Under the pieces are notes generated by a model. The model had not been told where the DNA came from, searched no databases, and worked only from the letters and a program-made list of their open reading frames with translations. From an uncultured Bacteroidota bacterium (GTDB lineage: Bacteria > Bacteroidota > Bacteroidia > B-17B0 > Aurantibacillaceae), in contig CALMVZ010000010.1 of the NCBI GenBank assembly GCA_937873155.1, forward strand, positions 186,001 through 250,000: a stretch of 64,000 nt of DNA, written 5' to 3'. Of this stretch, positions 15,065 through 42,240 are shown in pieces (within the stretch, counting starts at the first letter, position 1; every line of letters begins with the position of its first letter). The translations under genes were made by a program, and so were the position numbers.

Positions 15065-15227
15065 GATGTTTTTTGTTTATTTAATTTTTACGAGGAGAGT
15101 TGCGTTAAGGTGGAGGTTTGTTTCTTAAAAGAATGTTAAGAGTGGCTAGAGTTTAGTGGTTAGAGTTTAGAGAAAGAGGCAGGTTGTGGGGTGGGAGTGA
15201 CCAGTTATGTTTGAGATATTGCCAGTT

Positions 15228-15479
15228 GCAAAAAATACTGTTTAAGAAGCTAAAACGATGTTGGAAGATGATAAAACTCCGTTACAAAAAGTTAAAACGC
15301 CGTTGTGAGTTGCAAAAACTCCTGTGAAAGAAGTTAAAACTCCGGTGAAAGAAACTAAGACTTTTTTGCAAGAAGATAAAACTCCTGTGTTAGTTTATAA
15401 AACTCCGTTGAAAGAAGTTAAAAGGATGGTGGGAGAAGATAAAAGGGTGGAGGGTAATGTTAAGTATTTATCAGAGTAA
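15228..15479. repeat. 21-bp degenerate tandem repeat array (11 units plus a partial)
   Basis: Eleven contiguous 21-bp units run from 15228 to 15458, and a twelfth partial unit reaches the KAP stop codon. The unit consensus is close to GTTAAAACTCCGTTGAAAGAA; invariant features are TAAAA near the start and an A-rich end. The exact multiple of three gives a KTPxKEV-like heptad reading on the plus strand, but in-frame stops occur in units 1 and 4, and minus-strand frames also contain stops. It is not CRISPR because there are no spacers. The rest of the 15065-15470 gap shows only short TAGAGTTTAG direct repeats near 15150. Confidence 0.85.
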
Positions 15480-22694: not shown

Positions 22695-23522
22695 CTATTT
22701 CACGCGGACACCGTTCTGGTATTTCACTAAAAAACCTTTGAAGCCTTTTGCTGATGCTTCTTCAAAACCTTTTAAGCCTTCTTCTTTAGTATTATATTTT
22801 CCGTAAAGAACTTTGTAGTTACCATCTTCTTTGCTGATCTCAACCATATTTCCTAATGAAGCATATTTTGATTTACCCGGATCGGTTGGAGATGAAGCTA
22901 ATTGTACACGGTAAACTAAACCCGGTACTGCCGAAGATGTAGCTGCAGGGGTAACATTGCTTGCAACTGATGTATTAACCGGCTCTGCTTTTACAGGTTC
23001 TGTTTTCACAGGCTCTGTTTTAGCAGGAGTTGTAGTTACAGGCTGCGTTTTTGCAGGTTCTGTTTTTGCAGGCTGAGTTGTACTTCCCGAAAGATTTTTC
23101 GGATTAGCACTTCCGCCGAAAGCAACATTCATTGGTTCAGCTTCAATTTCTTTTTTCGCGCCATTTTCCAGGAAATAGAATTTCTGGATCACCGCACCTT
23201 CAGCAGGAGCTGATGATGTTACGCTTACTTTGAATTTTAATGTGAATTCCGCATCACTTGGCACAGATACCCAAACGATCTTGGCACGGTTATTCTCGAA
23301 AGTAAAATTACCCGATTTAGAATCTACTTCAGTCACGTTAACACCAACCGGAACATCCATCTGGTATTTCGCGAAATTGGCGATCGAACCTTTATTGATC
23401 TTCACTTCAACATCGGTATTTGAACCTGCTGCTAAACTTGAAGGCATGTTGGTAGTTAATGTTACCTGGCCCATCATGGAAACTCCAAAGGCCATCGATA
23501 AAGCGAATAATTTCAATTTCAT
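22695..23522 (-). CDS. Exported protein with proline/threonine-rich linker and SPOR domain
   Basis: A 275-residue protein with signal peptide MKLKLFALSMAFGVSMMGQ. A beta-rich N-terminal domain (about 20-140) resembles cohesin/Ig-type domains. A low-complexity linker of repeated TEPAKT/TEPVKT units (about 150-190) follows, then a C-terminal SPOR domain (about 205-275: YRVQLASSPTDPGKSKYASLG, VLYGKYNTKEEGLKGFEEA). SPOR domains bind denuded septal peptidoglycan, so a division-site envelope role is plausible. The ATG at 23522 starts the signal peptide. Divergent from the glycosylase gene with a 73-bp shared upstream region. Confidence 0.8.
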   Translation of the reverse strand: MKLKLFALSMAFGVSMMGQVTLTTNMPSSLAAGSNTDVEVKINKGSIANFAKYQMDVPVGVNVTEVDSKSGNFTFENNRAKIVWVSVPSDAEFTLKFKVSVTSSAPAEGAVIQKFYFLENGAKKEIEAEPMNVAFGGSANPKNLSGSTTQPAKTEPAKTQPVTTTPAKTEPVKTEPVKAEPVNTSVASNVTPAATSSAVPGLVYRVQLASSPTDPGKSKYASLGNMVEISKEDGNYKVLYGKYNTKEEGLKGFEEASAKGFKGFLVKYQNGVRVK

Positions 23523-23595
23523 ATGATTAAATTTGATGCAAATTATAAAAATAATACAATAAAACAAAGGTATTCAGGTCCAATTTACCACCCAA

Positions 23596-24177
23596 ATGAA
23601 GTTAAAAAAAGTATACTATTCAGAGCCAAATGTGGTTAAACTGGCTAAAGATCTTATTGGTAAAGTGCTGGTTACAAGAGAGGGAAAAACGATCACTTCA
23701 GGTATAATTACCGAGACAGAAGCCTATAACGGTATTGTTGATAAGGCCTCCCATGCCTATGGCAATCGTCGTACCAACCGAACCGAAACCATGTTCAAAG
23801 AAGGGGGTACCAGCTATGTTTACCTATGTTATGGCATCCATTATTTGTTTAATGTGGTCACTAATGAAAAGGAGCATCCTCATGCTGTTCTGATAAGAGC
23901 TATTCAGCCTTTAGATGGAAAAGAACTGATCTTACGAAGGAGAGGTGTCGCAAAACCGGATAAAAAACTATGTGTTGGCCCAGGAAAAGTGAGCCAGGCT
24001 TTGGGCATCACCATAAAACATAACGGCCTCGACCTGACAGGCGAGAAGATCTGGATCGAGGACAGGGGTATTAAAGTAAAAGCGAAGGATATTTTAATTG
24101 GTCCGCGCATTGGCGTGGATTATGCGAAGGAAGATGCTGACTTGCCGTATCGTTTTTGGGTGGAGAAAGAATTCTGA
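23596..24177 (+). CDS. DNA-3-methyladenine glycosylase (AAG/MPG type)
   Basis: A 193-residue enzyme of the eukaryote-like alkyladenine glycosylase family, which removes 3-methyladenine and related bases (EC 3.2.2.21). Signatures are LAKDLIGKVLV, ITETEAYNG with the catalytic Glu, DKASHAYGNRRTNRTETMF, and TSYVYLCYGIHYLFNVV; the LCVGPGKVSQALGI block follows. It is full length, ending in YRFWVEKEF. The last codons plus stop (about 24150-24180) recur as the first part of every unit of the adjoining 160-bp tandem array. Confidence 0.95.
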   Translation: MKLKKVYYSEPNVVKLAKDLIGKVLVTREGKTITSGIITETEAYNGIVDKASHAYGNRRTNRTETMFKEGGTSYVYLCYGIHYLFNVVTNEKEHPHAVLIRAIQPLDGKELILRRRGVAKPDKKLCVGPGKVSQALGITIKHNGLDLTGEKIWIEDRGIKVKAKDILIGPRIGVDYAKEDADLPYRFWVEKEF

Positions 24178-25470
24178 ACCTTCAGGGCTGAAGCCCCATT
24201 TATAATACGTTATTCAAATAACCCCAGACTAAAGTCTGTGGTTAAGTATCTGAGGAGAACTTGTTCCTTCGGTATAAAAATCTAACCTCAAACTTTAGTC
24301 CGGCGCGAGGAGTTTTTGGTAGAGAAAGAACTCTGAACCCTCAGAGCTGAAGCCCCATCTATAATACGTTATTCAAATAACCTCAGGCTAAAGTCCGGGG
24401 TTAATTATCTGCGAGGAGAATTCGTTCCTTCCGTATAAACATCTAGCCTCAGACTTTAGTCCGGTGCGAGGAGTTTTTGGTGGAGAAAGAATTCTGAACT
24501 CTCAGGGCTGAAGCCCCATTTATAATACGTTATTCAAATAACCCCAGACTAAAGTCCGGGGTTAATTATCTGAGGGGAACTTGTTCCTTCCGTATAAACA
24601 TCTAGCCTCGGACTTTATTCCGGAGCGAGGAATTTTTGGTGGAGAAAGAATTCTGAACCCTCAGGGCTAAAGCCCATCTATAATACGTATTCAAATAACC
24701 CCAGACTAAAGTCTGGGGTTAAGTATCTGCAAGGAGAATTTGTTCCTTGTTCGTATAAACATCTAACCTCAGACTTTAGTCCGGTGCGAGGAGTTTTTGG
24801 TGGAGAAAGAATTCTGAACCCTCAGAGCTGAAGCCCATCTATAATACATATTCAAATAACCCCAGACTAAAGTCTGGGGTTAATTATCTGAGGAGAACTT
24901 GTTCTTTCTTCGTATAAAAATCTGACCTCGGACTTTATTCCGGTGCGAGGAATTTTTGATGGAGAAAGAATTCTGAACTCTCAGGGCTGAAGCCCCATTT
25001 ATAATACGTTATTCAAATAACCCCAGACTAAAGTCTGGGGTTAAGTATCTGAGGAGAACTTGTTCCTTCCGTATAAACATCTAGCCTTAGACTTTAGTCC
25101 GGCGCGAGGAATTTTTAGTGGAGAAGGAATTCTGAACTCTCAGGGCTGAAGCCCCATTTATAATACGTTATTCAAATAACCCCAGACTAAAGTCTGTGGT
25201 TAATTATCTGCGAGGAGAATTTGTTCCTTCCGTATAAACATCTAACCGCGGACTTTATTTCGGCGCGAGGAGTTTTTGGTGGAGAAAGAATTCTGAACCC
25301 TCAGGGCTGAAGCCCCATTTATAATACGTTATTCAAATAACCCCAGACTAAAGTCTGTGGTTAATTATCTGCGAGGAGAACTTGTTCTTTCTTCGTATTA
25401 ATATCTAACCTCGGACTTTAGTCCGAGGCTAATAAGTACAACAGAGAAAAGGGCTTTAGCCCTGAGAATA
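24150..25470. repeat. Tandem array of about eight 160-bp units seeded from the 3' end of the glycosylase gene
   Basis: Copies of TGGAGAAAGAATTCTGAAC recur with TGA at 24175, 24334, 24495, 24654, 24815, 24974, 25133 and 25294, spacing 159-161 bp. Each unit then carries GGGCTGAAGCCC, AATAACCCCAGACTAAAGTC / GTCTGGGGTT-type dyad, and CTCGGACTTTAGTCCG-type dyads, so it can form strong hairpins. The array ends near 25470 with a last GGGCTTTAGCCC. No open frame is maintained. It fills the space between the glycosylase and the RlmI-like gene; no promoter is evident except just before 25513. Confidence 0.95.
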
Positions 25471-25512
25471 GAAACGGGATGAACAAAAAGAATTCCGTAA
25501 TTTCGCAGGCGT

Positions 25513-26688
25513 ATGCCGGTAAAGAGAATAACATTACATAATGGAAAGGAGCATTCCTTACTCAGGTTTCACCCCTGGGTTTTTTCGGGAGCTATTAAAA
25601 TAAAAGATGATGTTGCGGAGGGGGAATTGGTAGAAGTGTATTCGGCGAGCCAGAAATTTTTGGGTGTTGGTCATTATACGAATGCTAGTATTTCTGTCCG
25701 TTTGGTTTCATTTACGCCTGTTGAGATCAATGATGAATTCTGGTTCAATAAAATAAATAAGGCTTATCAGTACAGGAAAGAACTTGGGATCTTAAATGAG
25801 AATACGAATGTTTGCCGTTTGATATTTGGAGAAGGTGATGGTTTGCCGGGATTGATCATGGATTATTATGATGGCCATGTTGTTTTCCAGGCGCACAGTA
25901 TCGGGATGCACATGAACAGAGAGAATATTGTGAAGGCTTTACAAAAGACATTTGGTGCCGGATTAAAAAGTGTTTACGATAAAAGTTCAGAAACTTTACC
26001 AAAACAATATGCTGCCGGGGTTAAGAACGAATATTTAGTAGGGAAGGGCGGAGAGCAGGTTGTGGTGAAAGAGAATAATTGTAAGTTCATTATTGATTGG
26101 GAGAAAGGCCAGAAGACAGGATTTTTTGTGGACCAGAGGGAAAACCGCCTGTTATTATCGAAATATTCAAAAGGCAAAAAAGTATTGAATACGTTTTCTT
26201 ACACCGGAGGATTCTCAATTTACGCTGCTTTAGCAGGAGCGGAATTGGTTCATTCTGTGGATTCATCTGCACCGGCAATAGAATTAAGTAAACAAAATGC
26301 GGTGTTAAATAACATCAGTAATCACGAAGGATATGCTGAAGATGTTTTTGATTTTTTAAAGGATAAGGACAATACTTATGATGTGATTGTTTTAGATCCT
26401 CCTGCATTTGCAAAGAGCAGGGATGTGAAACATAATGCTGTTAAAGGATATATTAAATTAAATGCTTTAGCATTACGTAAAATTAAGTCGGGAGGAATTT
26501 TATTTACTTTCTCTTGCTCAGGTGTTATCGATAAAATGTTATTCTATAATTCTGTTTCTGCTGCTGCAATTGAGGCGGGAAGGAATGTAAAAGTGATCCA
26601 CTATTTAAATCAACCTGCTGATCATCCTGTGATCCCTTTCTTTCCTGAAGGGGAGTATTTAAAAGGTATGGTGCTTTGGGTGGAATAA
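25513..26688 (+). CDS. Class I rRNA methyltransferase, RlmI-like (PUA plus methyltransferase)
   Basis: A 391-residue enzyme. The N-terminal PUA-like domain (about 1-75: HPWVFSGAIK, VYSASQKFLGVGHY) and middle RFGEGDGLPGLIMDYYDG-type region (read here as FGEGDGLPGLIMDYYDG) precede a SAM-binding core: NTFSYTGGFSIYAALAGA, DVFDFLKDKD, VLDPPAFAKSR and FTFSCSG. This layout is that of RlmI, which methylates C5 of a cytosine in 23S rRNA. The site in this organism is not shown. It is followed by a strong bidirectional terminator. Confidence 0.88.
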   Translation: MPVKRITLHNGKEHSLLRFHPWVFSGAIKIKDDVAEGELVEVYSASQKFLGVGHYTNASISVRLVSFTPVEINDEFWFNKINKAYQYRKELGILNENTNVCRLIFGEGDGLPGLIMDYYDGHVVFQAHSIGMHMNRENIVKALQKTFGAGLKSVYDKSSETLPKQYAAGVKNEYLVGKGGEQVVVKENNCKFIIDWEKGQKTGFFVDQRENRLLLSKYSKGKKVLNTFSYTGGFSIYAALAGAELVHSVDSSAPAIELSKQNAVLNNISNHEGYAEDVFDFLKDKDNTYDVIVLDPPAFAKSRDVKHNAVKGYIKLNALALRKIKSGGILFTFSCSGVIDKMLFYNSVSAAAIEAGRNVKVIHYLNQPADHPVIPFFPEGEYLKGMVLWVE

Positions 26689-42004: not shown

Positions 42005-42240
42005 TTCCACCCCTACGGGGTTTTATTTATTTGGTATTGATTTTTCTATAATGATTTCATCCCTTCGGGATTATACCATGCTCGATCTTTAATGAACCTG
42101 GTTCTTAACTCCGAAGGAGTGAAATGATTATAGAACAACAAAAAAATTCTTTTTTAAACCCCGAAGGGGTGAAATGATTATGGAACAATGAAACAATTCT
42201 TTTTAAACCCCGAAGAGGGTGAAATTGGCCCAATTCGGTT
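42005..42240. repeat. Composite REP-like element, copy upstream of the carboxylase gene
   Basis: CCCCTACGGGG, CCCTTCGGGA, CTCCGAAGGAG, CCCCGAAGGGG and CCCCGAAGAGGG-type dyads are separated by GTGAAATGATTATAG/GGAACAA spacers. The same order occurs after the gene (43860-44060). It fills most of 42005-42303; the last 60 bases are AT-rich and hold the presumed carboxylase promoter. Confidence 0.85.

Follow-up and report, generated by a model that had tools for sequence, protein, structure and literature searches.

How did the end of a protein-coding gene come to be copied, head to tail, together with a set of DNA hairpins? This question is raised by a locus in an uncultured Bacteroidota bacterium of the family Aurantibacillaceae (assembly GCA_937873155.1), which lies in the 64,000-nt stretch from position 186,001 to 250,000 of contig CALMVZ010000010.1; this whole stretch is hereafter called the window, and coordinates without a prefix refer to it. 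The gene encodes a DNA-3-methyladenine (methylpurine) glycosylase. An original prediction, made from the letters of the window, had described eight units at 159-161-bp spacing, each opening with the last codons and stop of this gene and then carrying hairpin blocks like those of repetitive extragenic palindromic (REP) elements, and had proposed a breakpoint inside coding sequence and growth by unequal exchange or slippage. Our analysis confirmed the REP-like nature of the hairpins, which belong to an element that is dispersed, shows covariation, lies mostly at gene ends and is linked to a Y1 transposase. With a probability of roughly 0.7, we propose that the array arose by tandem duplication with a breakpoint in the last codons of the gene and then grew and was shuffled by exchange, the element being akin to the REP doublets forming hairpins (REPINs) and probably mobilised by the Y1 transposase.

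The array (Table 1) was recovered by Tandem Repeats Finder (TRF) at 24152-25425 with a period of 161, 7.9 copies, 89% matches and a score of 1958, and once more in a further row at period 320; when the intact right end is counted, the composite spans about 24153-25466. Its eight copies extend over 1.27 kb, with successive starts spaced by 160, 161, 159, 161, 159, 159 and 161 bp, and all eight open with TTTTTGG(G)TGGAGAAAGAATTCTGA, either exactly or with one or two substitutions. This opening corresponds to the last ~25 nt of the glycosylase gene, that is, seven sense codons plus the stop; in unit 1 it is the authentic end of the gene, and one G of the gene tail is missing in every unit from 2 to 8. 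The predicted spacing and gene tails were thereby borne out, and the named hairpin blocks are present, some of them with substitutions. Units 2-8 share a common junction to the preceding unit, CGG[C/T/A]GCGAGGA[G/A] followed directly by TTTTTGG, so the breakpoint inside the coding sequence can be read directly. Internal units end at the base of the inner right hairpin (iR) and pass straight into the gene tail, and the right end is undisturbed in unit 8 alone, which retains the outer right hairpin (oR), GGGCTTTAGCCCTGA. Taken whole, the array DNA occurs once in the genome. An array of clustered regularly interspaced short palindromic repeats (CRISPR) or other spacer array was ruled out, the units being head-to-tail copies with their spacers included, and Rfam gave 0 matches in the window at the gathering score.

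The units are 85.5-95.2% identical over 165 alignment columns, and any two of them differ in 8-24 columns. Adjacent units differ on average in 17.4 columns and other units in 17.5, neighbours being no more alike, and 90 of the 136 pairs of informative columns among the window units failed the four-gamete test. These mosaic units, with adjacent pairs no closer than distant ones, argue for exchange or conversion between units and lend support to the predicted mode of growth, which we infer from sequence patterns to which recurrent mutation could also have contributed. Ordering the units by age, as had been suggested, yielded no useful signal (r 0.17, permutation p 0.20). The same divergence bears on whether the array might be an assembly artefact, produced by expansion or mis-joining of a single unit. 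The genome is a draft of 39 contigs, and the end of contig C6 and the start of C2 break inside another array of the family; yet false expansion would yield near-identical units, whereas these differ by 5-15%, each with differences of its own, so that plain assembly duplication is unlikely and an artefact appears very improbable. Since near-identical copies might have collapsed, eight is the count for this assembly.

Searching the genome with the array returned 44 more short matches, some of which are both strands of one place. Inspection of 21 loci defined the element, which is ~95 bp or more in length. In its short form an outer left hairpin (oL; TCAGGGCTAAAGCCC) and oR enclose a central palindrome, for example AACCCCGGACTTAAGTCCGGGGTT, from which each is separated by ~20 variable nt. 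A longer form, of which the window array is built, has two inner hairpins: the inner left hairpin (iL), whose tip is of the CTAAAG type, and iR, whose tip is of the CTTTAG type. The consensus of 12 elements shows oL and oR to be exact reverse complements of each other, as in the inverted pairs of REPs. A covariance model constructed from 12 short-form elements (R2) gave 105 matches over both strands of the genome, clustered by hand into at least 34 sites, with the C12 transposase locus described below counted as two and one weak match (E 0.025) excluded; the number is a lower bound, as 150 of 4,166 first-look candidates were scored. Like REPs, the palindrome occupies many intergenic sites, none of them wholly in an open reading frame (ORF). 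R2 matches were found in 21 of 60 genomes, our own included, and in all eight of the genus. The foot of the outer hairpins carries TCA in 33 of 38 cases (21 loci), and GTAG, the foot of REPs, occurred within 0-2 nt of the stem in none of the 38.

The conserved parts of the element are three local hairpins. For the covariation alignment, 67 loci supplied 166 matches, of which the best 150 were taken (138 distinct rows, possibly including both strands of one element); this alignment leans towards the R2 model. All 20 modelled pairs of the local hairpins changed on both sides and 95.5% of cells were paired; 0 of 500 shuffles attained any of the five covariation measures, and partners slid along the alignment were at most 60.7% paired. 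Pairing of the outer arms with each other was rejected as the conserved structure, since in the same alignment 77.8% of cells were paired, 6 of 13 pairs had double changes and covariation was 0.102 versus 0.395 for the local hairpins. The outer-arm signal was not nil: there were 58 double-change cells versus 42 in shuffles, 34 of them from one pair, and the unslid score exceeded the slid ones. Folded as single-stranded DNA, two single elements preferred a long outer-arm hairpin (z -8.6 and -8.1), and two array stretches were stabler than shuffles (z -4.3 and -3.7). As covariation is far better for the local hairpins than for outer-arm pairing, the conserved units are mainly the local hairpins.

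Placement of the sites was judged on crude gene calls, namely ORFs of 80 aa or more. Of the 34 sites, 19 lie in tandem gaps, 10 in convergent and 3 in divergent ones, and 2 at contig ends. At 29 of them a stop codon is no more than 20 nt away (hand count); the five farther ones are C26:249777, C10:367415, C11:495821, C12:210783 and C12:366724, the last of which overlaps the end of the transposase frame missed by the gene-calling script. Random placement in 26 intergenic gaps, a control drawn from the one 64-kb window only, brought 15.6% within 20 nt of a stop (binomial p about 5e-19). Tight placement at gene ends and strong covariation would suit an array maintained by selection, the repeated hairpins serving as transcription terminators, as protectors of mRNA 3′ ends or as a protein-binding array, of which the gyrase sites on bacterial interspersed mosaic elements of type 2 (BIME-2) are an example (PMC2817692). 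Several observations make such selection quite unlikely: sites in divergent gaps show no depletion (3 of 34, versus 3.9% when placed at random in the window), arrays are absent from most of the 34 sites, and, while positions 23500-25600 contain six terminator-like sites versus 2.3 expected in shuffles, five of the six are on the minus strand.

The genome contains four Y1_Tnp matches, one of which, an IS200-like gene on contig C12, has elements on both sides and runs into one of them with its frame. Its protein was compared with 150 genomes, and 79, our own included, had a match at E 1e-10 or better. At the 30 best transposase loci (the near set), R2 detected an element in 29 at E up to 0.01; the gene has an element immediately next to it in 28 and on both sides in 22 (hand count), the exceptions being L129, with no element, and L135, whose element is ~430 nt off. 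The same model found 0 elements in 47 other loci, comprising 43 glycosylase loci, L014 of the genus and the three other transposases of our genome. At 24 of 29 near-set loci the two flanks share inverted repeats of at least 10 nt, versus 4 of 35 glycosylase-locus flanks; L146, with no intact motif, and 8 of the 43 glycosylase loci, as unsuitable, were left out, and at L133, L136 and L143 the repeats are A/T-rich strings only. Of 60 genomes, 16 had both the element and a close homologue of the transposase (E 1e-35 or better), 1 the transposase only, 5 the element only and 38 neither (hand count), a co-occurrence that is partly circular because gene-flanking copies count as elements. In the tree, the 28 near-set transposases of sufficient length all fall to the same side of a branch supported at 99/95. 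Beyond this clade, R2 matched at 5 of 22 more distant transposase loci despite differing stems, the remainder being judged by eye only, and inverted repeats at these loci were unconvincing (5 of 22, versus 24 of 413 swapped pairs and the 4 of 35 glycosylase-locus flanks).

The original prediction had suggested looking for a REP-associated tyrosine transposase (RAYT) gene elsewhere in the genome. The linked C12 gene answers this in part: it is flanked by repeats, as a RAYT gene would be, but it scores 26.8 bits with NCBIfam REP_Tyr_transpos against a cut-off of 80 (IS200/IS605, 66.9 versus 55), and its elements lack GTAG. The C12 transposase is not a canonical RAYT. Its motif YIDDQEEHH is the Y-x3-Q-x2-HH signature, as in subclass 1.2 of the Y1 transposases, and the length is 139-165 aa in 27 of 29 loci; signature, length and phylum together fit that subclass (PMC6006769). 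HuH and the signature were found in one frame at 51 of 52 homologue loci, which is a consistency check only, the motif being required by the script and the loci picked by similarity.

A further gene-tail capture with the same layout was found at C10:485074-485272, behind a 279-aa gene (PF06983). Its 97-bp unit, in two copies 97% alike, repeats the last 25-30 nt of the gene, oL and the centre, a single oR follows the last copy, and the 5-mer TTTAA is common to gene tail, junction and right flank. In the history that we favour, a REPIN-like palindromic element (oL, then one centre or iL and iR, then oR) would first have stood behind the glycosylase gene, 4 nt from its stop codon. Duplication in tandem would then have linked the last inner hairpin, at its 3′ base, to a point within the last nine codons of the gene, giving a repeat unit of gene tail, oL, iL and iR and leaving a single oR outside on the right; the seven internal junctions agree with one another, which makes a single founding event likely. 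The later growth and reshuffling may have come about through unequal exchange, through slippage or through conversion between units, and the element family is probably mobilised by the IS200-like Y1 transposase that it flanks on C12, acting on single-stranded hairpins. The short distance from stop codon to element would explain why gene tails are captured, since any duplication that extends ~30-45 nt leftward from the first hairpin is bound to include coding sequence.

The layout common to the two captures raises the alternative that the transposase itself made the array, cutting at a hairpin foot and re-joining, head to tail, a single-stranded circle or copied-out piece that carried the gene tail. 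In both cases the right breakpoint is at the 3′ base of an inner hairpin with oR outside, and the left one precedes the first hairpin stem by about 32 nt in the window and by 38-43 nt in the second case; next to the transposase gene, at L147, there are further amplified stretches (44 bp x3.6 and 80 bp x2), in which inspection so far showed no gene tails. Ordinary hairpin slippage, however, predicts much the same, the two left breakpoints show no common cleavage sequence by eye and the second case has microhomology at its junction, and we consider this origin unlikely. A wider idea, tentative and in our view rather doubtful, is that subclass 1.2 IS200-like Y1 transposases in Bacteroidia are overlooked REP-type transposases, each clade having its own multi-hairpin target, with stems free to change if paired and copies dispersed mostly at stop codons, and that the same enzyme, via single-stranded hairpins, also makes tandem arrays carrying off gene ends.

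Several findings weigh against duplication and exchange of a mobilised element as the origin of the array. A glycosylase match was present in 2 of 7 other genus genomes, one near full length (62% identical), and the latter locus has neither element nor array. TRF found no such array at 37 element loci of relatives, which are part of their sites and include one place twice. The spacers between hairpins are unconserved across dispersed copies, leaving recent transposition unsupported, and the window junction has ~9 nt of filler and no clear microhomology. Five of the 60 genomes, as noted, have the element and no close transposase homologue, the 47 control loci come mostly from genomes without a known element, and the stop-codon count depends on the crude gene caller. 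The 8-mer GCGAGGAG at the window junction recurs in the unit spacer (chance about 0.013) and may be a faint trace of template switching.

Some neighbouring observations are recorded here. At L149:2454-2901 (C38:93453-93900), a 62-bp unit x7.4 with degenerate inner hairpins lies between iL and iR and forms a further large amplification internal to the element, with no gene tail as far as inspected. The C6 3′ end (L193) and the C2 5′ start (L192; 70 bp x1.9, likewise with no gene tail as far as inspected) both stop in the same ~70-bp repeat of the element family, in matching orientation and with no exact overlap, and may abut across an unresolved array. Around the distant Y1 transposases at L168, L169, L170 and L173 lie hairpins that have long central palindromes and stems unrelated in sequence, in a layout still matched by R2. 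Another palindrome family, CCCCGAAGGGG, has 18 genome matches versus 0 for a reversed control pattern, at 42107-42225 in the window, C10:359358, C12:212527 and 15 more places; one of the 18 is inside the window's 50-bp tandem repeat. Two of its copies adjoin the other two intact Y1_Tnp genes (C10:359530, C12:212647), of which it may be the cognate element. At L159:3120-3545 (C12:212119-212544), a 177-bp unit x2.4, 98% alike and with CCCGAAGGG-type hairpins, adjoins another Y1_Tnp gene. Within the window, 15224-15444 is a tandem repeat with periods of 21, 42 and 84, possibly in a coding stretch. For the methyltransferase downstream of the array, the top NCBIfam equivalog was RlmI, at 295 bits and under its cut-off of 712.

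Table 1. Coordinates of the glycosylase gene, the array units with their hairpins, the downstream neighbour and the linked transposase gene (SAM, S-adenosylmethionine).
Feature	Position	Strand	Details
DNA-3-methyladenine (methylpurine) glycosylase gene, 193 aa	23596..24177	+	PF02245 215 bits; TIGR00567 205 bits; ORF
Array unit 1	24153..24312	+	native gene tail, stop 24175-24177; R2 match 24182-24270
Unit 1 hairpins	oL 24182-24196; iL 24220-24243; iR about 24286-24310	+	
Array unit 2	24313..24473	+	R2 match 32.7 bits, weakest in array
Array unit 3	24474..24632	+	R2 match 24502-24590
Array unit 4	24633..24793	+	R2 match 24661-24749, 60 bits
Array unit 5	24794..24952	+	R2 match 24822-24908
Array unit 6	24953..25111	+	R2 match 24981-25069
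Array unit 7	25112..25272	+	R2 match 25140-25230
Array unit 8	25273..25466	+	sole complete right end; R2 match 25375-25465
Unit 8 right-end hairpins	iR 25409-25428; oR 25451-25465	+	iR CCTCGGACTTTAGTCCGAGG; oR GGGCTTTAGCCCTGA
RlmI-like SAM-dependent RNA methyltransferase, 391 aa	25513..26688	+	downstream neighbour outside array; PF10672 and PF17785 over cut-off
IS200-like Y1 transposase gene, 155 aa (locus L010)	C12:366303-366770		elements on both sides; frame runs into one

Among known systems, the tandem REPIN clusters that Bertels and Rainey (2011, PMC3116915) described in Pseudomonas fluorescens SBW25 come close to the array: there, too, head-to-tail units consist of a 5′ flank plus a REPIN, the family is dispersed and clusters occur beside transposase genes. 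Since tandem clusters that include flanking DNA are thus already known, the array represents a long example of an established kind. The largest SBW25 cluster comprises four REPINs over 700 bp with nearly identical units, compared with eight units of 5-15% divergence here; moreover, the flank in our case is made up of the final codons and stop of a gene, and internal units carry only one outer arm each. TIRtrons, with their TIRYT transposases, likewise have, to either side of a Y1 gene, inverted repeats that are partly self-complementary and in some cases are also dispersed as dimers or clusters (Di Nocera 2013, PMC3733652). Their terminal inverted repeats contain GGGGWSAS in some though not all cases, whereas this motif is absent from the flanks of all 29 loci checked, where each flank is a several-hairpin unit, commonly with CTTYAG or CTRAAG tips.

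With the REPs, REPtrons and BIMEs of Proteobacteria (PMC8266576, PMC2817692), the element shares inverted hairpin pairs that are dispersed, mostly intergenic and found beside a Y1 gene, and tandem copies occur in both. It differs in having no GTAG foot and an IS200-like transposase in place of the NCBIfam REP-associated type, and its sites, at least 34, are far fewer than the roughly six hundred REPs of E. coli K12 (PMC8266576). The hairpin core alone is not unique, as its 12-mer GGGCTTTAGCCC is also part of a Haemophilus influenzae REP (PMC2817692). In open-licence papers, screened by titles and abstract openings, we found no account of this element or of REPs for subclass 1.2, and within that literature the newer part of our study is that, in Bacteroidia, a covarying hairpin element of gene ends is paired with a transposase of the subclass 1.2 type. 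The two tail captures illustrate how such elements can copy pieces of coding sequence, and the hairpin pairs, gene-end targets and amplification junctions provide exact substrates for testing REP-like mobilisation outside Proteobacteria. The closest comparison for the enzyme is with subclass 1.2 itself (Quentin 2018, PMC6006769), which has in common with it the Y-x3-Q-x2-HH signature, a similar length and occurrence in Bacteroidetes. In the table of that study the subclass is reported without REPs or terminal secondary structures, whereas here a dispersed, strongly covarying hairpin element flanks the gene in most loci of one clade.
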